Positions 5,215 to 53,262 of a stretch of 64,000 bases of DNA are shown piece after piece. The notes under the pieces were generated by a model that did no database searches, had not been told where the DNA came from, and worked only from the letters and a program-made list of their open reading frames with translations. How positions within the stretch are numbered: the stretch's first letter is position 1; every line of letters starts with the position of its first letter. The position numbers and the translations under genes were made by a program. The DNA is from Terriglobia bacterium (lineage in GTDB: Bacteria; Acidobacteriota; Vicinamibacteria; Vicinamibacterales; CAVVIG01), in the NCBI GenBank assembly GCA_020073005.1, contig JAIQFX010000005.1, positions 1 to 64,000 on the forward strand. The letters are read 5' to 3'.

Positions 5215-5670
5215 ATGGCACTCGATCGGCAACGCACCGGCCTCACGATCCTGCGCATCTGCATCGGGGTGTTCTTCGTCTTCGAGGGGCTGGGCAAGAT
5301 CTCCTGGTTCACGAACACGACGCCGCTGGCCGATCAGCTCTCGGGCTGGTCGAAGGCCGCGGCTGGCGGATCGATCAGCCAGTGGTACCTGCAGACGGTC
5401 GCCGTGCCGGGCCTCGTGTACTTCGCGCGGCTCGTCCCGCTCGGCGAGATGAGCTCCGGCCTCGCGATGATCTTCGGGTTCTGGACGCCGCTCGCCGCGT
5501 TCGTCGCGTTCTTCATGGCGCTGAACTTTCAGATCGCCGGCGGCGTGATCTTCAAGTACAGCTTTCTGACGAACGGCTACGGGTTGCCGGTACTGGGATC
5601 GACGCTCGCCCTGGTGTTGTCGGGCTCGCGCGGAAAGACGAAGACCCTGAAAGTGAAAAGAGAAAAGTGA
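5215..5670 (+). CDS. DoxX family membrane protein
   Basis: A 151-residue integral membrane protein with four hydrophobic helices and the DoxX-type N-terminus ILRICIGVFFVFEGLGKI. DoxX-like proteins are associated with quinone or thiol redox functions, but no specific role can be assigned. ATG 5215 lies 11 bases after the M28 peptidase stop, so the two are probably co-transcribed. The last seven or so residues (TLKVKREK) are encoded by the start of an AAAGTGAAAA-type periodic tract, so the tail is probably not conserved. Confidence 0.88.
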   Translation: MALDRQRTGLTILRICIGVFFVFEGLGKISWFTNTTPLADQLSGWSKAAAGGSISQWYLQTVAVPGLVYFARLVPLGEMSSGLAMIFGFWTPLAAFVAFFMALNFQIAGGVIFKYSFLTNGYGLPVLGSTLALVLSGSRGKTKTLKVKREK

Positions 5671-5735
5671 AAACTGAAAACTGGAGAGAAGCACCTGAAC
5701 GCTTCACTTTTCAGTGTTCTCTTTTCAGTTTTGAG
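5649..5735. repeat. AT-rich periodic tract with inverted repeat between convergent genes
   Basis: Runs of AAAAGTGAAAACTGAAAAC are followed by the inverse TTTTCAGTGTTCTCTTTTCAG, giving an imperfect inverted repeat in the gap between doxX (plus) and the rhomboid gene (minus). It is far more AT-rich than its surroundings. It could fold in RNA from either strand and may end transcription in both directions, but it is not a standard GC stem plus U-run. Confidence 0.6.
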
Positions 5736-5737
5736 TT

Positions 5738-6484
5738 TTAGTGGACGCGTCCGTCCCAGTGGTCCGAGCGTCCACCGGACACGACGTCGAACTTCTTGCG
5801 GAGCCGGTTGATTCTCCACTTCACGTAGCGGTACTTCACCTCGGCGAACGGCGACAGCGTGATTCGCCCGCCCTTCAGATACAGATAGCCGACGAGCAGC
5901 CCGCCGAGGTGCGTCGCGTTCGCGACGCCGCCCGATTCCCCGAGCGACGAGTACAGCGCGATCGCGCCCATGATCGTCACGAACACGCGCACCGGGATCG
6001 GGAACACGAAGTACATGTAGATTCGGCGGTCGGGAAAGTACATCGCGTACGCGAGGAGCAGGGCGTAGATCGCGCCCGAGGCACCGATCACGATCGAGTA
6101 GTGCACCTGCTGCGCGAAGCCGAACGGCAGGAGCGAGAACAGCACCGTGAGGACGCCCGCGCCAATTCCGGTCACGAAGTAGAACTTCAGGAAGAACCGC
6201 GTACCCCATCGCCGTTCCAGATCGGTGCCGAACATCCACAGCGCGAGCATGTTGAAGAGGATGTGGAACAGGCCGCCGTGGAGGAACATGTAGCTGACGA
6301 GTTGCCAGACGCGGAACTCGTGGACCACCTGCACCGGGACCAGGCCGAACCAGACAATGATCGACGGCATGAACGTCGTCAGCACGAACATCGCGACGTT
6401 GGCGCCGATCAACGCCTTCATGGCGCTCGAGAGCGGCCCAGGACCGAAGGAATACGACGAGGCGTACGGCGAATAGCGGGGCAT
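5738..6484 (-). CDS. rhomboid family intramembrane serine protease
   Basis: A 248-residue polytopic membrane protein with the rhomboid catalytic dyad: Ser136 in GASGAIYA and His192 in NATHLGGLLVG. The upstream HGGLFHILFNM motif (residues 69-79) supplies the oxyanion-site His and Asn typical of active rhomboids. It has six predicted helices and a basic, soluble C-terminal tail. The family cleaves membrane proteins within the bilayer. The ATG at 6484 is 8 bases from the murJ stop, so it is probably the last gene of a murJ-rhomboid unit. The substrate is unknown. Confidence 0.93.
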   Translation of the reverse strand: MPRYSPYASSYSFGPGPLSSAMKALIGANVAMFVLTTFMPSIIVWFGLVPVQVVHEFRVWQLVSYMFLHGGLFHILFNMLALWMFGTDLERRWGTRFFLKFYFVTGIGAGVLTVLFSLLPFGFAQQVHYSIVIGASGAIYALLLAYAMYFPDRRIYMYFVFPIPVRVFVTIMGAIALYSSLGESGGVANATHLGGLLVGYLYLKGGRITLSPFAEVKYRYVKWRINRLRKKFDVVSGGRSDHWDGRVH

Positions 6485-15141: not shown

Positions 15142-16190
15142 CGGCCATTCGCCATGAGCCGATCGACGACACCGTCCCACGTGATGAGACGGACGCGATC
15201 GTACCCCGCGTCTCCGAGCGACTGGGCGAACCGGCGGTCGTCCGCGAGCTGGTTGACCGCCGCGCCGATCGCCTCCGGCGACGGCTCGACGACGAGGCCG
15301 GTCACGCGGTCTTCCACGAATTCCAGCGGCCCGCCGGCGTCGCTCGTCGTGACGACGGGCTTGCGCGAGAGAAACGCCTCGAGCGTGATGTAACCGTAGT
15401 CTTCGTCGAAGGGCGGGAACACGACGCCGAGCGCGCCGGCGTACAAGTCGACGAGGGCGCGCGCGTCAATGCCGCCGGTCCACGTGATCCGACCGGCCAC
15501 GCCGGCCTCCGCAGCGGTCGCTTCGAGCGACTGCCGGAGCGGACCCTCGCCGACGACGACGAGGCGCACGCCAGACGTGACGTGCGCGAGCGCGCGGACG
15601 ATGAGGTCGACGCGCTTGTTGCCTTCCAGACGTCCCACAGCGAGCACGTAGTCGCCGAGCGGGCCCGTCTTCAGCTGGCCGGCGAGCGGCGGCGGATGAT
15701 AGAGCGGCTCCGCGGTCAGTCCGTTGTAATGCGCCATGCGCGCGGCCGTATTGCGCGAGTTGGTGAACAGACGCCGGACTTCGCCGAGCGCGTCCCGGTC
15801 GAGCCCGATCAGCGTGTTGCGCAGGCGGACGTCGCCTTCAGTGTGCGTGAACTCGCTGTACGGCGTGCCCGCCAGATCATAGATGGCGCGGTACTGATGG
15901 AAGACCCACGCGATCTTGTTCGGGTGGCGGACGAAGTACGTCGGAAATTTCGTCGCGATCACGGCGTCGATGCGCTGGTGGTTCGACTCGGAGAGGTCGA
16001 TGAGCCGCCACGCGGCCGCCTGGGCGAGCAGCTCGGCTTTCGGGTACCACTTGAACGGAATCGACACGCGCTCGGCGCGGTAGCCGCGCCGCTGCAGCTC
16101 GCCGACCAGGCCGCGCACGTGCAGCTCCGCGCCGCCGTGCACGAACGGCACCTGCGCTTCGCAGACGAGCACGGTACTGATCGATGGCAT
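15138..16190 (-). CDS. family 4 glycosyltransferase
   Basis: A 350-residue GT-B retaining glycosyltransferase. The C-terminal nucleotide-sugar domain is clear: YVLAVGRLEGNKRVDLIV, VVVGEGPLRQSLE, then PPFDEDYGYITLEAFLSRKPVV with the EX7E-like acidic residues. The N-terminus has the glycine-rich VHGGAELHVRGL acceptor loop. It is the first gene of the coupled glycan block and lies behind a periodic tract with a 16-bp palindrome that may hold the control region. It likely adds a hexose to an exported polysaccharide or O-antigen-like glycan. Confidence 0.92.
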   Translation of the reverse strand: MPSISTVLVCEAQVPFVHGGAELHVRGLVGELQRRGYRAERVSIPFKWYPKAELLAQAAAWRLIDLSESNHQRIDAVIATKFPTYFVRHPNKIAWVFHQYRAIYDLAGTPYSEFTHTEGDVRLRNTLIGLDRDALGEVRRLFTNSRNTAARMAHYNGLTAEPLYHPPPLAGQLKTGPLGDYVLAVGRLEGNKRVDLIVRALAHVTSGVRLVVVGEGPLRQSLEATAAEAGVAGRITWTGGIDARALVDLYAGALGVVFPPFDEDYGYITLEAFLSRKPVVTTSDAGGPLEFVEDRVTGLVVEPSPEAIGAAVNQLADDRRFAQSLGDAGYDRVRLITWDGVVDRLMANGR

Positions 16191-16262
16191 TGGGTAATTG
16201 GGTGGTTGGGTAAGTGGGTAATCGATTACCCGGTGACCAGATTACTCAACGACCCAATTCAT
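16191..16262. repeat. TGGGTAA periodic tract with 16-bp perfect palindrome
   Basis: Repeated TGGGTAATTGGGTGGTTGGG words lead into GGGTAATCGATTACCC (16216-16231), a perfect palindrome, and then the inverse word family ending in ACCCAATTC. It fills the gap between ychF and the first glycosyltransferase gene. It may be a repeat relic, a regulator site for the glycan block, or both. Confidence 0.65.
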
Positions 16263-25481: not shown

Positions 25482-26833
25482 CGTTTAGCGTGGATCGCAA
25501 GCGTGTGACCGTCGCGGGAGCGGCGCGAAGCGGCCTGGCCGCCGCCGAGCTGCTCGCGCGCCGCGGCGCGCGCGTGACGCTCTCGGACTTGCGACCCGCG
25601 GTGCCGGAGGCCGAGCCGCTTCGTCGGCTCGGTGTCGAAGTGGAGCTCGGCGGGCACACGCGCGAATCGTTCGAAGCCGCCGATCTGGTGGTGTTGAGCC
25701 CCGGCGTGCCGCCCGAACAACCGATGGTGCAGGCGGCGCGGGCGAAGGGCGTCCCGGTCATCGCGGAGATCGAGCTCGCGTCGCGCTGGCTGCAGGGCCG
25801 CGTGATCGCGATCACCGGCACGAAAGGGAAATCGACGACGACCGCGCTGACCGGACGGATTCTGGCGACCGCGGGATTCAAGGTAACCGTCGGCGGCAAC
25901 ATCGGTGCGCCGCTCAGCGCGCAGGTGTCCGAGTCGACGCCCGACACGCTGCACGTCGTCGAGGCGAGCAGCTTTCAGCTCGAGCAGATCGATACGTTCC
26001 ATCCGTGGATCGCCGTGATGCTGAATTTTTCGCCCGACCATCTCGATCGCCACCCGACCGTCGAGGCGTACGCGGCGGCGAAGGCGCGCATCTTCGAGAA
26101 CCAGGACGCGGGCGACTGGGCCGTGATCAACGCCGACGATCCCGCCGTGCTGGAGCTGGCGCGGCGCGGCCGCGCCGCGACGCGTCTGTTCGCGCGCCGC
26201 AGCGCGATCGCCGACGGCACGGTGATCGACGGCGACTGGATTGTCGAGCGCGCCGGCGCGACGCAGCGCCGGCTCGTGCCGCTGGTCGCCGTGCACCTGC
26301 TCGGTCCGCATCTGGTCGGCGACGTCATGGCCGCGGCGACGGTCGGTGCGATTGCCGGCGCCACGCCGGCGTCGATGACCGCGGCGGTCGATGGATTCGC
26401 CGGACTCGAGCATGCGATGGAGCTCGTCGCCGACATCGGCGGCGTCCGGTTCGTCAACGACTCGAAGGCGACCAACGTCGAGTCGGCGCTCAGATCGATC
26501 GAGAGCTTCGAACGGAATCTCGTGCCGATTCTGGGCGGCAAGTTCAAGGGCGGCGACCTGCGGCTGCTGCGCGAGCCGCTGCGCGCGCGCGCGAAAGCCG
26601 TCGTCGCGATCGGCGAAGCGCGGCCGCTGGTGCGCGAAGCGCTCGCCGGCGCCGTGGACGTGGAGGAAGTCGACGGCCTCGCCGCGGCGGTCGCACGCGC
26701 GTACGCGATCGCCAAGCCGTCAGGCGTCGTGCTGCTGGCGCCCGCGTGCGCGAGCTTCGACATGTTTCGCGACTACGCAGAACGGGGGAGACGCTTCAAA
26801 GAGGAGGTGAGGCGGCTCGCAGCTGAAAGCTGA
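25478..26833 (+). CDS. murD: UDP-MurNAc-L-Ala--D-Glu ligase MurD
   Basis: ATP-dependent ligase adding D-glutamate to UDP-MurNAc-L-Ala. The 451-residue protein opens with the Rossmann-like [15 protein letters not shown], has the P-loop [13 protein letters not shown] at residues 114-126, then [11 protein letters not shown] and the C-terminal [16 protein letters not shown] (pieces of each shown). The last codons (AAES) run into a GCTGAAAGCTGA-type tract. It is the last gene before a 256-base gap that holds an inverted-repeat element; this is the largest break in the dcw cluster. Confidence 0.96.
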
Positions 26834-27089
26834 GAGCTGAAAGCTTGCTGAGCAGTGAACAGTCGTCAGTCGGTCCGTGCGGTAGAGGACTGGCTGCTGG
26901 GAACACAGGCCGCCCCGGCCTGTGAAGCTGGTGCCCCGGCCCACGGCCGACTGATGACTGTTGACCGCTCAGCGCGATCCTAAATCCGGCTGAAGCCGGA
27001 CGCCACGTACTTCCGTGGCGGGGCGTTCAGAGCGTTTCGTTCCGGTTCGGACAGTATTTCGGGCGCAATCGCGCCCGACTGTAGAGGGC
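26834..27089. other. 256-base intergenic gap in dcw cluster, repeat-filled
   Basis: No credible gene. It begins with a GCTGAAAGC periodic tract, contains the 127-bp inverted-repeat element at 26847-26973, then ATCCGGCTGAAGCCGGAC (26983-27000), ACGTACTTCCGTGGCG and GGGCGCAATCGCGCCC (27061-27076), a series of small hairpins. The ftsW ribosome-binding site GAGGG closes the gap. No consensus promoter was found, so ftsW is probably read through from upstream. Confidence 0.6.
26847..26973. mobile_element. 127-bp MITE-like element with 27-bp terminal inverted repeats
   Basis: The left end (26847-26873) and the complement of the right end (26947-26973) match at 24 of 27 positions, beginning GCTGAGC and ending CAGTCGG. 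The interior is a GC-rich 73-base stretch with internal hairpins and no reading frame. No transposase gene is present in the window, and I see no clear target-site duplication. It may also be a degenerate periodic tract paired with its inverse. Confidence 0.55.
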
Positions 27090-28193
27090 ATGGCCAGAAA
27101 ACTGAAGTCCGACAGAGTGCTGTTTCTCGCGACCCTGCTGCTGGTCGGGATCAGCATCGTCATGGTCTACAGCGCGTCGGCCGTCGTCGGCCTGGAGCGC
27201 TTCGGTAAGCCGTCGATGTTCCTGCTCCGCCAGAGCATGTGGGCCCTGCTCGGGATGGCGATGCTGTACGTCGTGATGCAGATCGACTACCGCTACTACC
27301 GCGAGCCGATCTTCATCTGGAGCGGCCTCGCGTGCGTCGTGCTGGCGCTCGTCGCCGTGTTCTTCAGCGCGCCGGTCAACGGCGCGCGGCGCTGGTTCGG
27401 CATCGGCGGTTTCGGCGTGCAGCCGTCGGAGCTCGCCAAGCTGGTCGCGATCTTCTTCATCGCGGCGCTGCTCGAGCGCCGCATGCACCGCATCGACGAC
27501 GCGAAGTACGCGCTGCTGCCGATCGGCTGCCTCGTGCTGGGTCTCGTCGCGCTGATTCTGCCGGAGCCCGACTTCGGCACGTCGATGTCGCTGGTGCTCA
27601 TCGCGGCGGTGATGGTGTTCGCGGCCGGTCTCAACTACCGCTACGTCTTCGGCGTGATCCTCGCGTCGCTGCCCGTGATCTACATCGTCGTGATGGGGTC
27701 CGCGTACCGGCGCCGCCGGACGCTCGCGTTCCTGAATCCATGGGACGACCCGCTCGGCGACGGCTTCCAGATCATCCAGTCGCTCATCGCGGTCGGCACC
27801 GGCGGCGTGTGGGGCCGCGGGCTGATGAACGGCGTGCAGAAGCTCTTCTATCTTCCCGAGCCGCACACCGACTTCATCTACTCGGTCATCTCCGAGGAGC
27901 TCGGCCTGGTCGGCGCGACCGTCGTGCTGCTGTGCTTCTGCGTCGTGACGTGGCGCGGACTGCGCGTCGCGCTGCGCGCGCCGGACACGTTCGGCGCGTT
28001 TCTCGCGCTCGGCCTGACGACGATGGTCGCCGTCCAGGCGCTCGTGAACATCAGCGTCGTGCTCGGACTGATGCCGACGAAAGGGATCCCGCTGCCGTTC
28101 GTGAGCGCGGGCGGCTCGTCCCTCCTGATCAACCTGGTGGGCATGGGGATTTTGTTGAACGTGTCGCAGCACGCGTCTTCGTTCGAGGCATGA
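27090..28193 (+). CDS. ftsW: septal peptidoglycan glycosyltransferase FtsW
   Basis: SEDS-family membrane protein that polymerises septal glycan strands together with FtsI. The 367-residue chain has ten hydrophobic helices and the SEDS signatures GARRWFGIGGFGVQPSELAK, the PEPDFGTSM loop with the catalytic Asp, and PLPFVSAGGSSLL. ATG 27090 is chosen because GAGGG precedes it and the family N-terminus starts here; in-frame residues upstream come from repeat sequence. Confidence 0.95.
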   Translation: MARKLKSDRVLFLATLLLVGISIVMVYSASAVVGLERFGKPSMFLLRQSMWALLGMAMLYVVMQIDYRYYREPIFIWSGLACVVLALVAVFFSAPVNGARRWFGIGGFGVQPSELAKLVAIFFIAALLERRMHRIDDAKYALLPIGCLVLGLVALILPEPDFGTSMSLVLIAAVMVFAAGLNYRYVFGVILASLPVIYIVVMGSAYRRRRTLAFLNPWDDPLGDGFQIIQSLIAVGTGGVWGRGLMNGVQKLFYLPEPHTDFIYSVISEELGLVGATVVLLCFCVVTWRGLRVALRAPDTFGAFLALGLTTMVAVQALVNISVVLGLMPTKGIPLPFVSAGGSSLLINLVGMGILLNVSQHASSFEA

Positions 28194-37989: not shown

Positions 37990-38350
37990 GCGCGCGGCCC
38001 ACGTGCTCGAACGTCACGTGGCCGATCGCGTGGACGAGCAGGCGCGCCTTCGCGTGCAGCGGCTGCAGGCCCGAGTTCTTGACCTTGAAATTCCCGAGCA
38101 TCTGCTGCACGAGCAGGAGGGAATCAGAGCGGACGTGAAGCGCGCGGTGCCCGTGCGCGCGCGCCCACTCGAGCGCCGCCAGCAGGCCGCGGTACTCCGC
38201 GACGTTGTTGGTCGCGACGCCGATCGACTCGCTGAATTCCTCGACGAGCGTGCCGTCCGGCTGCTCGACGCGGACGCCGAACGCCGCGGGACCGGGATTG
38301 CCGCGCGCGCCGCCGTCGATGTAGGCGATCGGAATGGGTTCAGGGTTCAA
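37934..38350 (-). CDS. ribonuclease HI-like protein
   Basis: A 138-residue RNase H fold enzyme. The four catalytic acids are visible: Asp12 (YIDGGARGNPG), Glu52 (NNVAEYRGL), Asp76 (VRSDSLLLV) and Asp126 (AHADRLAN). It lacks the basic protrusion of the E. coli enzyme, resembling the YpdQ/Sll-type short forms. TTG 38350 is the only start that includes the first strand, and it sits in a TTCAGGGTTCAAGG tract that encodes the first four residues. It follows the zinc-ribbon gene by 4 bases. Confidence 0.9.
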   Translation of the reverse strand: MNPEPIPIAYIDGGARGNPGPAAFGVRVEQPDGTLVEEFSESIGVATNNVAEYRGLLAALEWARAHGHRALHVRSDSLLLVQQMLGNFKVKNSGLQPLHAKARLLVHAIGHVTFEHVGRALNAHADRLANAAMDAARE

Positions 38351-38400
38351 GGTTCTACGTTCTCAGTTCCGAGTTCTGAGTTCCACTCCCCTGAACCCCG
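38339..38400. repeat. periodic tract of AGTTC/GGTTC words between two coupled genes
   Basis: Words such as TTCAGGGTTCAAGGTTC, then CAGTTCCGAGTTCTGAGTTCC repeat at a 7-10 base period. The tract encodes the last 15 residues of the zinc-ribbon protein and the first four of the RNase H-like protein. Confidence 0.65.
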
Positions 38401-39107
38401 GCCTTCGGAACGAAGTACAGAATCCGATTACAGCTGTCGCACTGAAGGATCGCGTCGTTGCGCATCACGGTGTTGAAGATCTGCGGCCGCAGCCGGACGT
38501 GGCAGATCGTGCAGATGCCGTCGCGCGCCTCGGCGACCGCGACGCCGTTGCGCTTGCGCGACACCTGCTCGAACGTCGCGAGCACCTGTTTGTCGAGCGC
38601 GCCGACCACCGCGACGCGTTCGCCCGTGATCCGGTCGATGGTCGCCTGCAGCTCCGTCTGCTCGGCCTGCATCGCGCGCCGATCCGCGTCGACGGCTTTC
38701 TGCTCCGCGGCCAGCTCGGCCTCCGCGCGCTTGACGATGGCCGTCAGCTCGTCGGCTTCGAGCATGCGCTCGAGGACCTTGTCCTCGATGGTCTTGACCT
38801 CGCCCTGCGCGAACGTCATCTCCTTCTGCATGGCCTGGTATTCGACGTTGGTCTTCACGGCCATCAGCTGATCGCGAAACTTGGAGAGCCGTCCCTGGTG
38901 GACGGCGACTTCCTTTTCGAGGTCGCGCCGCGCGTGCTGGTTCTGCGTCAGCTGCTCTTTCGCCGCCGCCACGCGCTGGCGCGCCCCGTCGAGCCGCGCG
39001 TCGAGCGCCTTCTCACGGTCGGGGCCTTCCGCGAGCCGGCGCCGCGCGGCGTCCGCGGCCGAGTCAATCTGTTGGAGGGCAATGAGGCGTTCCAGATCAG
39101 AGTTCAT
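38355..39107 (-). CDS. coiled-coil zinc-ribbon protein (CT398/zf-RING_7 type)
   Basis: A 250-residue protein with a long antiparallel coiled coil (about residues 5-180, heptad-rich with NVEYQAMQKEM at the centre) and a C-terminal four-cysteine-type ribbon with CTICH and CDSC near residues 199 and 224. This is the architecture of chlamydial CT398 and its many bacterial homologues, which have been linked to RpoN or secretion partners. The last 15 residues (AGVQGSGTQNSELRT) come from a periodic tract. It lies just behind the terminator that follows the tRNA gene. Confidence 0.88.
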   Translation of the reverse strand: MNSDLERLIALQQIDSAADAARRRLAEGPDREKALDARLDGARQRVAAAKEQLTQNQHARRDLEKEVAVHQGRLSKFRDQLMAVKTNVEYQAMQKEMTFAQGEVKTIEDKVLERMLEADELTAIVKRAEAELAAEQKAVDADRRAMQAEQTELQATIDRITGERVAVVGALDKQVLATFEQVSRKRNGVAVAEARDGICTICHVRLRPQIFNTVMRNDAILQCDSCNRILYFVPKAGVQGSGTQNSELRT

Positions 39108-41111: not shown

Positions 41112-42835
41112 AAGTTGTCGATTTCGCTTCCGTGTTGAGTGGCGCCCAGCTGCTGCAGCCGGTCGATTTCCCGTTGAATGGCCGCGCGCTCTCGGTCGAG
41201 CCGCAGGCGTTTGAACGTGTGAACGCAGTTCAGGACGACTGTCGCCGGGGGGGCCTTGTCGGTGGCGATCCGGGTCACTAACTGAGCATTCATAGTACTT
41301 AGACGCTGCAACAGCGTCGTTGGTAAGAGCTCAGGCGAGTGATTTTGCAGAGTCCGCGCCACCTGGAAGACCTCTCGTGTCACCAGGTTATCCAAATCCG
41401 CTTCGTCGATGTCCTCCAGCACGGCAAGGGCCTCTTCGGGCCGGTTGATCAACCACCAAATCAGGGCCTTTTCCGCGTCCTTCAGGCTCCCCAGGCTGGG
41501 CAGTTCAGCCGTCCCCACGGTCGTGCGCCGCTGCACGGCCGCCTTACGAATCTCGTCCCTGACGACGCCTTCCGCGACCCGCGCCTTGTGCGCGATGCGG
41601 TCCGCGAACTGGTCGCGCACCGCGGCATCGGGTATTCGCGCCGCGACCGCCAGCATCTCCTCGAAAAACTGTCTCCGGTTGTCATCGCGACCGAAATCGC
41701 GGCCTGCCGCCGATCGATCGAGGAGGTACTCCAAATACGGCTGGGAGCGCTTCAATCTTTCACGATACTGCTCTGGACCGTGCTTCCTGATGAATGTATC
41801 GGGATCTTCGCCTTTGTCCAGCACGACGACGTTGACGTCGAAGCCCTCGGCGACCAGCAGTTCACACGACCGCACGGCGGCGCCCTGTCCGGCGGCATCC
41901 GGGTCGAAGCTCAGCACGATCTTGGACGTGAAGCGGCGGAGGAGCTGGGCCTGCTGCGGGGTCAGGGCCGTGCCGCAGGATGCCACGGCCGGCGCGGCCT
42001 GCGACTGGAACATCTGCGCGAAATCGAAGTAGCCCTCCACCAAGACGGCGTATCCGGCCTTGCGGATCGGCGATTTCGTCAGGCTGAGCCCGTACAGCGT
42101 CCGCCCCTTTGAGTAGATCGGCGTTTCCGGGGAATTCAGGTACTTGGGCCCGCCCTGATCGGGATCCATCTGCCGGCCGCCAAACGCGATGACGGACCCC
42201 GTATCCCTCGTAATCGGCACCATCAGCCGATTCCTGAATCGGTCGACGATCTCGCCGCCCTCGCGCTGCACGACCAGCCCGCTCTGGACGACCACTCCCG
42301 GCGCGAAGCCCTGCGCGAGCAGCCGGGTCTTGAGCCCGTCACGCGACGAAGGCGCGAAGCCGAGGCCGAGTTGCTCGATCGTCTGCGCCGTGACGTCGCG
42401 GTCGGCCAGCTGCTTCCGCGCGCGCGCGCCTGACGGCGCGTCGAGCTGCTCGCGGAAGTACGCCAGCGCGATCTCGTGCATCTTCAGCATCGCTTCGCGC
42501 AGCGCGGAATCGCGGCGGGCGTCGTCGGATCCCTCCGCCGGCTCCGGCAGCGCGACGCCGAATTTCTGCGCGAGCATCCGCACGGCGTCCTGGAACCCGA
42601 CCTTCTCGTGCAGCTCGAGGAACTTGAACACGTCGCCGCCGGCGTTGCAGCCGAAGCAGTGGAAGAAGCCCTTGTCAGGATGCACGTGGAACGACGGCGT
42701 CTTCTCGTTGTGGAAGGGACAGTTGCCTTTGTACGATGTCCCCGCCTTCTTCAGCGGGACGTACTCCTGCACCACCGTCAGGATGTTGGCCTGCAGGCGG
42801 AGGTCGTCGATGAACTGCTGCGGGAACAAACCCAT

Positions 42836-42878
42836 CAGAATCTGGTCATCTCGCCATCTGGTTATCTGGTCAGTCCTT
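42836..42878. repeat. ATCTGGT periodic tract between mutS2 and dnaG
   Basis: CTGGTCATCTCGCCATCTGG then TTATCTGGTCAG repeats at a 7-10 base period and fills the whole 34-base gap, entering the last three codons of mutS2. No promoter is visible, so dnaG is probably read from mutS2 or further upstream. Confidence 0.55.
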
Positions 42879-45380
42879 GAGTTCAACAACGGTCACGCCG
42901 CCGCCGCCCTGTTCGGGCGGCGCGGTCGCGAATCGCGCGACGAGCGGATGCTGCTGCAGGAACCCGGTCAGCGCGCGCTTGAGCTGGCCGGTGCCGTAGC
43001 CGTGGATCACGCGCACGACGCGCTGATCGGTCAGCAGCGATGCGTCGAGGAAGCGCTCCGCGCGCGAGATGGCTTCGTCGACCGTGCAGCCGATGACATT
43101 GAGATCAAGGGGACGGGAGTCCCCCGGCAATCCCTGGGACTCACGTCCCCTTCCGTCCTGCGACTCCCGTCCCCTCGCGAGCTCGACGTTGACCCGCACG
43201 CGCGCCGCGGCGGGCCCGCCGCCGTCGGATGAAATCACGCGCAGATCGCGGACGCTGGCGCGCATGCGCTTGCCGCGGACATCGAGATCGGCCGTTCCGT
43301 CGTGCATCGCGGTCACGGTCGCCTCGAGACCGAGGCCGCCGACGATCACGCGGTCGCCCACCTCAACACCGCGGATTGAGGATTGCGGAGTGCGGATTTC
43401 CGAGGAGGCGGCCGGCTCGCTCGACGCGCCATCGCCGGCGAGAATGCGGGTCGCGACATTGTCGACGGCCGCGCGCGCGTCGGTGCGGGCGGCGCCGGTG
43501 TCGCCCGTGGTCGGGGACGGGTGTCGGAGAGGATTGGCGCCGACACCCGTCCCCGATGCCATTGCGGCCGTCTTCGCCTTGAGCGCCGCGATCACGTCGT
43601 CGATTTCCTTGCGCGCCTGGCGCACCTGCGTTTCCAGCTCCTCGTTCAGGCGCCGGCGGAACGTCTCTTCCTTCTGCCGCAGCGCGTCCTCGCGCTGATG
43701 CATGCGGCCTTCCGCCTCGTGCAGCTGCTCGCGCTCCCGCGTGGCGAGCCGCTGTTCGTGCTCGAGCGCCCGCATGTCGTGGTCGATCTTCGCGAGGTGC
43801 TCGGCGAGCTGCGCTTCGCGCGCGCTGAGATTGGCGCGCGCCGCGGTGATGACCGACGGATTCAGCCCGAGCCGCGCCGCGATCTCCAGCGCGAGACTTC
43901 GTCCGGGCGAGCCGTAGACCAGGCGGTACGTCGGGGCGAACGTCTCCGCGTCGAAGCCGAACGCCGCGCCGGCCACGCCGTCCGTCGTCGACGCGTACGT
44001 CTTGAGCGCGTCGTAGTGGCTCGTCGCGATGACCGTCGCGCCGCGCCGGCGGAGATGATCGACGACGGCCACGCCGAGCGCGCCGCCTTCGATCGGGTCG
44101 GTGCCCGAGCCGACTTCGTCCAGCAGCACGAGCGCCGGCGTGACGAGCCCGCGATCCATCGACGCGATGTTCGCGATGTGCCCGGAGAACGTGCTGAGGC
44201 TCGCGTCGATCGACTGCTCGTCGCCGATGTCGGCAAAGATCGTGCGGAAGACGGGCAGCCGCGATCCGTCCGCGGCCGGAATCCGCAGGCCGGCCTGCGC
44301 CATCAGCGCGAGCAGCCCCGCGGTCTTCAGCGCGACGGTCTTGCCGCCGGTGTTCGGGCCCGTGATCAGCAGCGCGGTCGCCGGCGGAATGATTTTGATC
44401 GTCACGGGCACGGGGGGCTTTGTTACCCCCGGGGCCCCCATCCCCGGGATGAGCAGCGGGTGCCGCGCGGCCTGCAGCTCGAACGCGCCGTCGGTGGTGA
44501 GCGCCGGCTCGACGCCGTCGATCGACGCGGAGTAGCGCGCGCGGGCCTGCAGCACGTCGAGCTCGGTCGCGGCCTCGATCGTGCGCTGCAGGTCCGACGG
44601 GCGCGCGCGGAACGCGTTGGTCAGCGCGAGCAGGATCCGGCGAATCTCCTCGGCCTCCTGCTCTTCGAGCGCGACGATGTCGTTGTTGATCTCGACGGTG
44701 CTGAGCGGCTCGAGAAACAGGCTCGCGCCGCTCGTCGACGTGCCGTGCACGATGCCCGGGATGCCGCTGCGGTGCTCGGCCTTGATGACGAGCACGTAGC
44801 GGCCGCTGCGCTCGGTGACGACCTGCTCCTGCAGGTACTTCGCGGTTTCCTTGCCCCGCAGGTACGACTCGAGCGTCGTCCGCAGGCGCGATCGCTGCTT
44901 GCGCAGGCGATCGCGGATGAGCTTCAGCTCCGGGCTCGCGGTGTCGAGGACGTCGCCGGCCGGATCGATTTTCTCCCGCACGTGCGCCGATTCACCCTTG
45001 AACGACGCGGCGGCGCCGCTGACGGCTTCGAGCGCCGGGTACGCGCCGGGCGCCCGGCGGATCGCCGCGCGCGATTCGTCGACGCCGTCGAGAAACGACG
45101 CGAGCGCGAGGAGCCGCAGCGCTTCGAGCGGACGGCCTTCGACGGCGAGCGCGCCGAGCGTCTCCGGCAGATCGGCCGCCGCGCGCAGCGGCAGCGCGCC
45201 GTTCGATCCCAGATACCGCATCGTCTCGCTCGTCGCCGCGAGCAGCTGCGCGACTTTCGCGGCGTCGGTCGACGGCGCCAGGCGCGCCAGGCGCTCCGCG
45301 CCCATGGGCGTCAGGGCGAAGCCGTTGACCGCCTCGACGACACGATCGAATTCGAGGGCCCGAAGGGCGCCTGCCTGCAT
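42870..45380 (-). CDS. mutS2: endonuclease MutS2 with two repeat-derived insertions
   Basis: MutS-like ATPase with a C-terminal Smr nuclease; it suppresses recombination or resolves collided ribosomes. The 836-residue chain has the Walker A ITGPNTGGKTVALKT near residue 345, Walker B LVLLDEVGSGTDP, a coiled coil (about 525-600) and the Smr domain (about 755-836, with HGYGTGQLK). Residues about 609-622 and 735-758 are encoded by REP-like hairpins (43513-43554 and 43107-43175). Both lie in linkers: one after the coiled coil, the other just before Smr. The frame and the catalytic parts are intact. Confidence 0.95.
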   Translation of the reverse strand: MQAGALRALEFDRVVEAVNGFALTPMGAERLARLAPSTDAAKVAQLLAATSETMRYLGSNGALPLRAAADLPETLGALAVEGRPLEALRLLALASFLDGVDESRAAIRRAPGAYPALEAVSGAAASFKGESAHVREKIDPAGDVLDTASPELKLIRDRLRKQRSRLRTTLESYLRGKETAKYLQEQVVTERSGRYVLVIKAEHRSGIPGIVHGTSTSGASLFLEPLSTVEINNDIVALEEQEAEEIRRILLALTNAFRARPSDLQRTIEAATELDVLQARARYSASIDGVEPALTTDGAFELQAARHPLLIPGMGAPGVTKPPVPVTIKIIPPATALLITGPNTGGKTVALKTAGLLALMAQAGLRIPAADGSRLPVFRTIFADIGDEQSIDASLSTFSGHIANIASMDRGLVTPALVLLDEVGSGTDPIEGGALGVAVVDHLRRRGATVIATSHYDALKTYASTTDGVAGAAFGFDAETFAPTYRLVYGSPGRSLALEIAARLGLNPSVITAARANLSAREAQLAEHLAKIDHDMRALEHEQRLATREREQLHEAEGRMHQREDALRQKEETFRRRLNEELETQVRQARKEIDDVIAALKAKTAAMASGTGVGANPLRHPSPTTGDTGAARTDARAAVDNVATRILAGDGASSEPAASSEIRTPQSSIRGVEVGDRVIVGGLGLEATVTAMHDGTADLDVRGKRMRASVRDLRVISSDGGGPAAARVRVNVELARGRESQDGRGRESQGLPGDSRPLDLNVIGCTVDEAISRAERFLDASLLTDQRVVRVIHGYGTGQLKRALTGFLQQHPLVARFATAPPEQGGGGVTVVELKD
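43107..43175. repeat. REP-like element, GGGGACGGGAGTC family (copy 3), in mutS2
   Basis: Left arm AAGGGGACGGGAGTCCC (43107-43123), right arm GGGACTCACGTCCCCTT (43136-43152) and a third half-arm GCGACTCCCGTCCCCT (43160-43175). On the coding strand it reads as duplicated GRESQ peptides followed by PGDSRPLD. The total length keeps the reading frame. Confidence 0.88.
43513..43554. repeat. REP-like hairpin, GGGGACGGGTGTC family (copy 4), in mutS2
   Basis: A perfect 15-bp inverted repeat, GGGGACGGGTGTCGG (43513-43527) and its complement (43540-43554), with a 12-base loop. It encodes SGTGVGANPLRHPSPT between the coiled coil and the following domain of MutS2. Confidence 0.92.
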
Positions 45381-45491
45381 ATCAGTGAACTGGGTGGTGA
45401 CCGCGCCAGAGAGGCGGGGGAACTAGTAATCCTACCGTACAGGACGGGCGAAGGGCAGAGGGCAAAGGGAGAAAAACTTCCCCGTGATTCC
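45381..45491. other. gap between larB and mutS2 with GGGCAAAGGG tract
   Basis: About 110 bases. It contains a purine-rich tract, GGGCGAAGGGCAGAGGGCAA then AGGGAGAAA (45447-45474), of the same periodic kind as other gene boundaries. No consensus promoter or terminator was seen. Confidence 0.5.
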
Positions 45492-46253
45492 CTATAAGTG
45501 ATTGATGAGACTCGCGATTGAAGCGGCGCCGAATCCGTTGTCGATGTTCACGACCGCGACGCCGAGCGCGCAACTGTTGAGCATGCCGAGCAGGGCAGCG
45601 ATGCCACCGAAGCTCGCGCCGTAGCCGATGCTCGTCGGCACGGCGATGACGGGCGTGCTGACCAGACCCGCCACGACGCTCGGCAGCGCGCCTTCCATGC
45701 CGGCGACGACGACGATCACGCGGGCGGACGAGAGACGGCTGCGCTCGCCGAGCAACCGGTGCAGCCCGGCGACCCCGACGTCGTAGAGGCGATCGACGTC
45801 GTTGCCCATGAGCTCGGCCGTCCGCGCCGCTTCTTCCGCGATCGGCAGGTCCGAGGTCCCCGCGGCGGCCACCATGATGGTTCCCTTACCTGGCGTGACG
45901 TCCTGCTGACGCAGGGTGATGAGCTTCGCGTCCGGGTGGTAGAGTGCCCCGGGCACGAGCGCGCGGACGGCCTCGTACGCCGCTTCGTCTGCGCGTGTCA
46001 CGAGCAAGGTCGATCCCCTTCCGACGATTTCCGCGGCAATTGCCGCGATCTGGGCGGACGTCTTGCCCAATCCAAGAATCACCTCGGGAAACCCCTGCCT
46101 GACGGATCGATGGTGGTCGACGCGCGCGAACCCCAGATCCTCGAACGGCCTGGACCGGAGCACCTCGATCAGGTACTCGAGAGCGGCATTGGTGTCGAGC
46201 TCGCCCCGCGCGACCCGCCCGAGCAAATCCTGCAGATGTTTGTTTGACGTCAT
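45492..46253 (-). CDS. larB: nickel pincer cofactor biosynthesis protein LarB
   Basis: LarB carboxylates and hydrolyses nicotinic acid adenine dinucleotide in the first step towards the nickel-pincer cofactor of lactate racemase and related enzymes. The 253-residue protein has an N-terminal helical part (DLLGRVARGELD) and a C-terminal AIR-carboxylase/PurE-like domain with VVVAGMEGALPSVVAGL, VIAVPTSIGYGASFGG and NIDNGFGAA. LarA, LarC and LarE genes are not in this window. It diverges from a glycosyltransferase gene over a 41-base region with a small palindrome. Confidence 0.93.
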   Translation of the reverse strand: MTSNKHLQDLLGRVARGELDTNAALEYLIEVLRSRPFEDLGFARVDHHRSVRQGFPEVILGLGKTSAQIAAIAAEIVGRGSTLLVTRADEAAYEAVRALVPGALYHPDAKLITLRQQDVTPGKGTIMVAAAGTSDLPIAEEAARTAELMGNDVDRLYDVGVAGLHRLLGERSRLSSARVIVVVAGMEGALPSVVAGLVSTPVIAVPTSIGYGASFGGIAALLGMLNSCALGVAVVNIDNGFGAASIASLINHL

Positions 46254-50642: not shown

Positions 50643-52454
<1,812 letters not shown>

Positions 52455-52456
52455 AA

Positions 52457-53224
52457 GTGAAAACGGACAACTCAAAAGTGAAGAGGCAGCAGGCTGAAGC
52501 GCCGAAGGCCGGCGCTGCGAACGCGACGACGTACCGCAAGTCGACGGTGCGCGAGTACTTCGAGTCGATCGTCATCGCCGTCATCCTGGCGCTGTTCATC
52601 CGGACGTTCGTCGTCCAGGCGTTCAAGATTCCCACGGGCTCGATGGAGAACAACCTGCTGATCGGCGATCATCTGCTGGTGAACAAGTTCGCGATGGGGC
52701 CGGCGGCGACCTCGCTCGAGCACGCGCTGCTGCCGGTGGAGAACATCAAGCGCGGCGACGTCCTGGTCTTCAAGTACCCGGTCGAGCCGGATCGCGACTT
52801 CATCAAGCGCGTCATCGGCCTGCCCGGCGAGACGCTCGAGCTGCGCGAGAAGAAGGTCTACATCAACGGCAAGCCGCTCGACGAGCCGTACGTCCACTTC
52901 CTGCAGGCGCCCAGCACGGGCGGCGAATTGTCGGAGGTGACGTCGTACGACGTGCGCGAGCGGTACGGCCCCGTGACGGTGCCCCCCAACCAGTACTTCA
53001 TGATGGGCGACAACCGCGACAACTCGCAGGACAGCCGCTACTGGGGCTTCATGCCGCGCGAGAACGTCAAAGGCAAGGCGCTCGTGATCTACTGGTCATA
53101 CGAATCGGAGCGCGAGGACTACCTGGACGAGAGCACGGGCGCGACGCTCAAGGGGCTGGCGTCGGTGTTCGCCCACTTCTTCACGCGCACGCGCTGGGAT
53201 CGGATGTTCCACCAGATTCATTAG
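52457..53224 (+). CDS. lepB: signal peptidase I (LepB)
   Basis: Membrane serine protease that removes signal peptides from secreted proteins. The 255-residue protein has one N-terminal helix (about residues 35-53), catalytic Ser62 in IPTGSMENN, Lys117 in DFIKRVIGLPGE and box E GDNRDNSQDSRYWG. The GTG at 52457 is the first in-frame start after lepA. The first ten or so residues (KTDNSKVKRQ) are encoded by a GTGAAAACGGACAACTC-type tract like the one after doxX, so the native N-terminus may have been extended or replaced. Confidence 0.95.
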   Translation: MKTDNSKVKRQQAEAPKAGAANATTYRKSTVREYFESIVIAVILALFIRTFVVQAFKIPTGSMENNLLIGDHLLVNKFAMGPAATSLEHALLPVENIKRGDVLVFKYPVEPDRDFIKRVIGLPGETLELREKKVYINGKPLDEPYVHFLQAPSTGGELSEVTSYDVRERYGPVTVPPNQYFMMGDNRDNSQDSRYWGFMPRENVKGKALVIYWSYESEREDYLDESTGATLKGLASVFAHFFTRTRWDRMFHQIH

Positions 53225-53262
53225 CGGGTTCAAGCTTCAGCGTTCCCGTTCACGAGAGCCGG
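53225..53262. repeat. short GGTTCAAGCTTCAGCGTTC tract after lepB
   Basis: GGGTTCAAGCTTCAGCGTTC then CCGTTCACGAGAGCC shows the same word style as the tract at 38339. It fills the gap between lepB and the next gene. Confidence 0.45.

Follow-up and report, generated by a model that had tools for sequence, protein, structure and literature searches.

Short inverted arrays of seven- and eight-base words: a genome-wide, lineage-specific class of elements in a Vicinamibacterales bacterium

The genome examined here contains a real, genome-wide and lineage-specific class of short inverted arrays. Each element is about 60-160 bp long; a word of seven or eight bases is repeated in a first array, and after a short spacer the array recurs in inverted form. 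The explanation that fits the data best is that these elements were inserted as discrete short units, and we give it about an even chance of being correct; to a similar degree, we consider the strong tracts to be arms of such discrete extragenic elements, or what is left of them. Several bacteria are known to carry intergenic heptameric repeats, on whose origin and role there is no agreement. The anatomy that we describe matches that of the known GGGAATC heptamers of Xanthomonas, as presented in passages of PMC4692102, with other words and many of them per genome.

The window, that is, the whole stretch of 64,000 nucleotides that was analyzed (contig JAIQFX010000005.1), has a GC content of 68% (43444/64000), and its tracts are mostly much more A+T-rich. 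A first-pass annotation had reported periodic tracts at eight gene boundaries, and we compared each of them with 1000 shuffles. Six are significantly periodic: none of the shuffles was as periodic as 5649-5735, 16191-16262, 26822-26870, 38339-38400 or 42836-42878, and one equaled 45447-45474. The remaining two are not, since 58 and 63 shuffles were as periodic as 52453-52490 and 53225-53262, respectively; the former possibly consists of decayed AAAAGTG words. The word length had been given as 7-10 bases, and we found periods of 7 and 8, but 9-10 were not seen. The main tracts of the window were recovered by Tandem Repeats Finder and by the period scan. The observation was thus partly confirmed and is largely real, although the inverted pairs among the strong tracts had been overlooked (Table 1). 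The DNA-fold z-scores of the inverted-pair tracts were -4.1 (5645-5742), -2.7 (16186-16262), -8.0 (26840-26976) and -2.3 (38333-38401), whereas the single-arm tracts 42834-42880 (z -0.2) and 45440-45476 (z 0.07) showed no DNA fold.

Table 1. Features of the window, junctions that differ cleanly between sister species, and Y1 transposase genes. Positions are those of the window unless a sampled stretch (L) is named.
Feature	Position	Strand	Remarks
DoxX-family gene	5215..5670	+	final 7 codons, including the stop, lie within element 5650..5739
Hairpin element, word AAAACTG/AAAAGTG	5650..5739	.	arms 5650-5678 and 5703-5731; 24-nt spacer
Hairpin element, 8-base word AATTGGGT	16189..16260	.	inverted pair 16189-16226/16221-16258; between ychF and the GT4 glycosyltransferase gene
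Single-arm tract, word AGCTGAA	26821..26845	+	murD end; other words there in G001 and G002
Long conserved hairpin, murD-ftsW junction	26847..26982	.	kept in G001, G002 and G017
Tract, word GGGTTCA	38336..38398	.	10-bp inverted end 38336-38345/38389-38398; encodes the zinc-ribbon protein C-terminus
Zinc-ribbon (CT398-like) gene	38355..39107	-	
Single-arm tract, 8-base word ATCTGGTC	42840..42872	.	mutS2/dnaG junction; in G001, hairpin of another word
Intragenic tract, word GGATTGC	43371..43403	.	within mutS2; near-identical in G001
Short tract, word GGGCAAA	45446..45469	.	in G001, TTGGGTAG hairpin at the same place
Tract at lepB start	52453..52490	.	periodicity not significant
Tract from first-pass annotation	53225..53262	.	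periodicity not significant
Y1 gene with flanking repeats GGGGACGGGAGTC	L042 14121-14468		
Y1 gene with flanking repeats GTAGCGCGAGCC	L021 12449-12760		
Y1 gene with flanking repeats GTAGGSCGGGTCC	L256 11680-12003		
Clean presence/absence junctions (1)	win_25481, L014_12914, L030_16581, L033_18143, L034_16077, L036_11056, L037_11715		
Clean presence/absence junctions (2)	L038_12987, L038_14118, L039_6703, L039_7957, L039_10938, L044_8689		

We scanned 455,357 bases of the genome (the window and stretches L029-L048, which were selected by contig without regard to content) and found 55 tracts of period 7 and 7 of period 8 at an A+T fraction of at least 0.4 and a score of at least 13. The same scan gave no tracts at the control periods 4, 5, 6, 10, 11 and 13 and one at 9; the counts at periods 14, 21 and 28 are an echo of 7. 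Without the composition filter, the density was 158/Mb for period 7 and 19/Mb for period 8, against 0-2 for periods 5, 10, 11 and 13. Period-7 tracts were also found in the sister species G001 (194/Mb, with control periods at 0-11) and G002 (191/Mb), and they reached 297/Mb in G030, which belongs to another family of the order. The densities in G013 were 100 and 150, with one run of N inflating each period. No tracts occurred in G004, G027 and G037, and one occurred in G028, in samples of 20-60 kb. The trait is patchy across relatives. The commonest words are AAAACTG, ACAGCTG, ACCAGCC and AAGGCAG, and GGG is present in few. Each tract had been credited with its own vocabulary, which was not supported: the set of words is limited and lineage-specific, and some of them turn up repeatedly at different loci, in the sister species as well. 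In the relative G013, stretches L218-L220 contain long near-perfect 8-base arrays (GAGGATTT), the longest of about 9 units.

Genes were called with a purpose-made codon-score caller, according to which 92.0% of the own-genome set is coding. Of 60 merged elements, 51 are intergenic, 5 are located at the ends of genes and 4 in their cores, so that the elements are rare inside genes rather than equally frequent there. With respect to the orientation of the neighboring genes, they occupy 19 of 116 ++ pairs, 21 of 147 -- pairs, 12 of 46 convergent pairs and 2 of 46 divergent pairs, with two more at stretch ends. Among 80 hairpins from this genome, its sisters and relatives, none is inside a gene; 36 are between ++ genes, 18 between -- genes, 22 between convergent and 3 between divergent genes, and 1 is at an edge. 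The median distance from the stop codon to these hairpins is 1 nt (quartiles -3.75 and 9), and that from the hairpin to the next start is 18.5 nt. Hairpins thus overlap or adjoin stops, as an association with stop codons would have it, and the remark that style and position are the same despite different words is supported. At L030 14580-14670, an extension of the palindrome (AACTCTAG) enters the end of the upstream gene.

When the 150 bp around each of the 89 own tracts were searched, 40 tracts had an inverted partner and 5 a direct one, compared with 1 of 89 in a control using the flanks of another tract; the other 49 have no detectable inverted copy within that distance. The difference from the control recurred in the set of relatives (24/61 vs 1/61), in G001 and G002 (31/83 vs 5/83) and in own stretches picked by pattern (19/84 vs 2/84); for the named loci, which share one word by choice, it was 96/276 vs 34/276. 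The spacers have a median length of 28 nt (10th-90th percentile, 11-78) and are mostly unique, and a local BLAST search with them within the sampled stretches showed no clear donor. Three GAGGAT-word hairpins of G001 (L270 16502, L272 13348 and L272 14245) have a similar spacer (GGGAAGAGTC..GACTCTGC), a resemblance which suggests that some whole elements may have been copied. The word itself can be described as a core of about five bases with two variable bases, as in GAAAA+NN, CAGCT+NN, GGTTC+NN and GAATT+NN. The two columns that vary most lie side by side in 53 of 79 own tracts (1/3 expected; binomial 9e-10), in 51 of 107 named tracts (0.0015), in 13 of 26 from G001 and G002 (0.058) and in 10 of 19 from other relatives (0.065), these probabilities being too small because tracts of one word family are not independent. 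Tracts of period 8 did not show this effect (1/8 in the own genome). Units next to each other are barely more alike than units two apart (0.786 vs 0.760).

The arms also have a constant polarity. We could assign a word family to 58 of 65 hairpins in the genus, leaving 7 unassigned, and the core was in the left arm in all 58 (for example, GAAAA 13:0, GAGGAT 10:0, CAGATT 8:0, GGATTG 6:0, TGGGTA 6:0 and AGAATT 5:0). Because the core directions were set after inspection, the information lies in the consistency within each family. In loci of other genomes picked with TTTTCAG, the polarity was reversed (24 vs 3); polarity therefore seems to go with the lineage rather than with the string. The outer ends mostly fall at one phase of the word, the boundary lying directly before AAANNGA in 26 of 36 ends, ATTGNGG in 12 of 15, ANTTGGGT in 13 of 18 and (G)ATNTGAGG in 21 of 26, where each hairpin is taken from both strands. 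The phase is less uniform in CAGATT (split 9 + 5 of 18), GAATT (4/8) and AATGCA (4/8). We settled on the family words once the arrays had been inspected, and elements that are orthologous among the own genome, G001 and G002 are not independent; only the end-phase tests are word-free. In the word-free test, the two outer ends shared a phase in 26 of 50 genus hairpins and the inner ends in 11 of 50, whereas simulated random ends gave a mean of 7.8 and a maximum of 17 in 200 runs. For the named loci, the outer ends shared a phase in 14 of 37, where simulation gave a mean of 6.7 and a maximum of 14, and the inner ends did so in 11 of 37; in other relatives a count without simulation gave 2 of 9 for the outer ends. 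The signal is weaker outside the genus.

Comparison with G001 at 241 junctions, whose flanks are about 88% identical, showed a tract in neither genome at 182, in both at 28, in G001 only at 22 and in the own genome only at 9. These 31 one-sided junctions bear out rapid change at the same junction between sister species, and 13 of them were judged by eye to be clean cases of presence and absence (Table 1); the remaining one-sided junctions come down to threshold crossings, a different word, REPs or, at L013_15972, a junction that is not equivalent. Words are also swapped. At 26833-27117, the own word AGCTGAA is replaced by ATGGCTA in G001 and by a long GGGCTAA array in G002, and such a swap, with the G001 hairpin, also distinguishes 45380-45492. 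Element 5650..5739, which sits between the convergent DoxX and rhomboid genes, has different arms in G001 and G002. The first-pass annotation had set simple shared descent aside, but shared descent acts as well: a tract is common to both genomes in 28 of the 59 own-G001 junctions with a tract in either. Conservation in distant relatives was checked between ychF and GT4. The own genome, G001 and G002 all have the element there, and it is larger in L055, from another genus of the family, while L064, from another family, has inverted arms with other words. The junction is empty in L052, L058, L062, L065 and L070, where ychF abuts GT4. The element at this site is thus common to the members of the genus and to a second genus of the same family, whereas many relatives are empty.

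The tracts had further been said to encode protein termini, and this is so for two C-termini. Before the stop, DoxX ends in ...KTLKVKREK in the own genome, ...SKKLKVKTEK in G001 and ...SKNLKLKSQK in G002, of which the tract encodes KVKREK, KVKTEK and KLKSQK, respectively, and the zinc-ribbon protein ends in ...VQGSGTQNSELRT in the own genome and ...VQGSGFNVQGSGSAGSSPVDPAN in G001. The two N-terminal claims fared less well: that for LepB depends on the tract 52453-52490, and that for the RNase H-like protein hangs on an uncertain start codon, with Pfam matches beginning at residues 8 and 12. Neither 7 nor 8 is divisible by 3, so a word containing a stop codon supplies stops in every frame, and therefore the elements readily become protein tails; by arithmetic, three units of a stop-triplet word at either period are enough to close every frame. 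Of 98 sense 5' arms, 31 carry stops in all frames, compared with 11 of 98 shuffles and 13 of 98 3' arms, and this higher frequency is due to the word period. We rejected the idea that the words were chosen as a stop-codon cassette, since the stops per nucleotide in the 5' sense arms match those of shuffles (0.0663 vs 0.0659). By donating stop codons and C-terminal tails to ordinary genes, the elements feed protein evolution.

How might such elements arise? If they are inserted as discrete units, a sequence-specific activity would recognize the word and the outer end and insert the element as a whole, the gain and loss of units and point mutation would subsequently alter it, and elements beside a stop codon would be tolerated. 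At the detected ends there was no excess of target-site duplication, with 57 of 66 showing none, 8 two bases and 1 four bases (control: 59.7, 4.6 and 0.3). The apparent duplications TGATGTT (win_25481) and AATGA (L039_10938) were discarded; they are not telling, because they repeat overlapping stop and start codons that selection would demand anyway. The elements resemble a DDE-type MITE in their terminal inverted repeats with defined ends, but they differ in showing no such excess; their spacers are mostly unique, unlike those of ordinary MITEs, although three G001 loci share one. The first-pass annotation had envisaged one process acting at junctions, such as slippage or template-free repair, and this interpretation is partly supported. 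Template-free repair was not supported, the words being specific and heritable within the lineage, nor was slippage alone, which does not predict that polarity is inward, that outer ends are fixed or that different loci use common words. In our estimate, local slippage during replication, starting from the final bases of the gene itself, is a distinctly improbable origin. It would suit the specific preference for period 7 and two empty sites of G001, which hold GAAGAAGTAAGAAGG where the own genome has an AAGAAGT array (L044 8689) and GAATTGA where it has a AATTGAGT array (L038 14118); however, inverted arms and constant polarity are also not predicted by it, and the similarity of units hardly depends on their being neighbors. 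Fold-back (quasi-palindrome) template switching, with one arm serving as the replication template of the other, would explain the inverted arms, the inverted identity that continues for 8 nt past both ends at L030 14580-14670, and the better match of GAATT arms to their own partners than to others (permutation p 0.002; six tests). Nevertheless, arms are about as similar to their own partner as to those of other elements (0.854 vs 0.837), with no significant gain in five of six word families, and the inverted identity of the outside flanks is at control level, so that we regard it as very improbable. A hardly greater probability attaches to word-templated addition by an analogue of telomerase in bacteria, in which both ends of a break would be extended from a fixed phase and then joined. 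If true, this would yield inward, independent arrays whose outer ends are fixed and whose inner ends are random; the filler would be unique, the target would not be duplicated, and the template would determine which words a lineage has.

An unlikely but more serious candidate is that the arrays bind protein and are kept by selection, the word being a repeated site at which a protein binds DNA or RNA, placed in inverted orientation at the 3' ends of genes, with a role in regulation, insulation or mRNA 3'-end protection of the kind proposed for the TAACTGA repeats. The conserved core with its variable positions is in keeping with this, as are the constant polarity and the retention of the word in arms that diverge independently. 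However, a dozen or so words per genome would require many proteins, and the word changes at the same junction between sister species. Selection on an RNA hairpin was also considered and rejected: at co-directional junctions, the sense-strand arm mismatches comprise 69 G-U and 74 A-C, without a wobble bias, and therefore there is no sign of selection on an RNA stem. The least probable origin, in our view, is that the elements are REPs mobilized by RAYT (Y1) transposases. They are indeed palindromic, extragenic, near gene 3' ends and without target duplication, and GTAG-type REPs are present in the same junctions of this genus. However, the element ends (AAANNGA, ATTGNGG, AATTGGGT and (G)ATNTGAGG) have no GTAG or CGTC tag. 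Y1 matches, found in 12 of 17 genomes, do not track tract density, in that G030 and G013 have many tracts without a Y1 match, and G027 and G028 have Y1 matches with 0-1 tracts in 60 kb. We inspected the contexts of four loci (three own, one from G001) of 25 matches. Three Y1 genes (two own, one from G001) have other REP families, rather than word arrays, on their flanks, the GGGGACGGGAGTC repeat having 20 exact copies in 455 kb, and the fourth locus (L275) has no tract; the L021 Y1 gene has a GGGTTC hairpin at a distance of about 1.3 kb. On present evidence, the Y1/RAYT transposases of these genomes are not the inserting enzyme. Together, the constraints from ends, arms, polarity, duplication and Y1 genes disfavor simple accounts and define what the responsible activity must do. 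Within mutS2, in addition to the word tract at 43371-43403, the own genome has an extra insertion with GGGGACGGGAGTC-type repeats (43105-43183) that is absent from G001.

Among described repeats, the cyanobacterial STRR heptamers are, like our elements, short and tandem, but they differ in being described as direct repeats. The closest description appears in passages of PMC4692102 (Rehm et al. 2015) on Xanthomonas and Nostoc, where GGGAATC and GGGGA(C/T)T heptamers are 89-93% intergenic, lie near the end of the upstream ORF and are few between divergent ORFs, with 70-75 convergently oriented inverted pairs per Xanthomonas genome. There, the Xanthomonas heptamer is one G-rich word with a similar one in Nostoc, its origin and role are left open, and a preference of the polymerase footprint for 7 is quoted as a suggestion of others. 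As far as those passages describe them, these heptamers share with our elements conserved and variable positions, an intergenic location at the upstream ORF end, rarity between divergent ORFs, convergent inverted pairs, and variation in length and sequence among relatives. They differ in that our genomes have many words each, mostly without GGG runs, and also 8-base words; our data further show that outer ends are fixed, that arms are independent and that presence/absence can be clean. Judged by sequence only, the units here are not of a G-rich, quadruplex-forming kind, few words containing GGG. The TAACTGA repeats of Beggiatoaceae, in the passages of MacGregor (2015, PMC4679880), are a single word, mostly direct and just upstream of start codons; they too are intergenic heptamer arrays, patchy across phyla and with no known mechanism of mobility, but ours have many other words, are inverted and abut stop codons. 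Passages of PMC2700814 describe paired tandem heptamer and octamer sites of Geobacter metallireducens, such as MTYCTGA, as putative binding sites of global regulators. Tandem 7-/8-base units paired on opposite strands are common to both, whereas ours are tied to stop codons and show presence/absence between sisters. With the GTAG/CGTC-tagged REPs and their RAYT, as outlined in PMC3733652, our elements share the form of short extragenic palindromes near gene ends, but they have no tag, an internal 7-/8-base periodicity and no RAYT association. Heptamer-derived satellites in bacteria are noted in a passage of PMC6749651. In the literature that we covered, which lies largely outside subscription journals, neither the fixing of outer ends nor the independence of arms was found described, nor were such multi-word elements.

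One hairpin of the window is long and conserved. The 135-bp hairpin at the murD-ftsW junction is 98% identical in G001, 90% in G002 and 82% in G017 (L222), with 50 predicted consensus pairs, 4 of which have double changes. A search of Rfam at the gathering threshold gave no match to it and found tRNA only. It is a candidate structured RNA. Its outer arms are also spaced by 7 bases (CAGTGAA CAGTCGT CAGTCGG), and perhaps it is a word-array hairpin that has become frozen.
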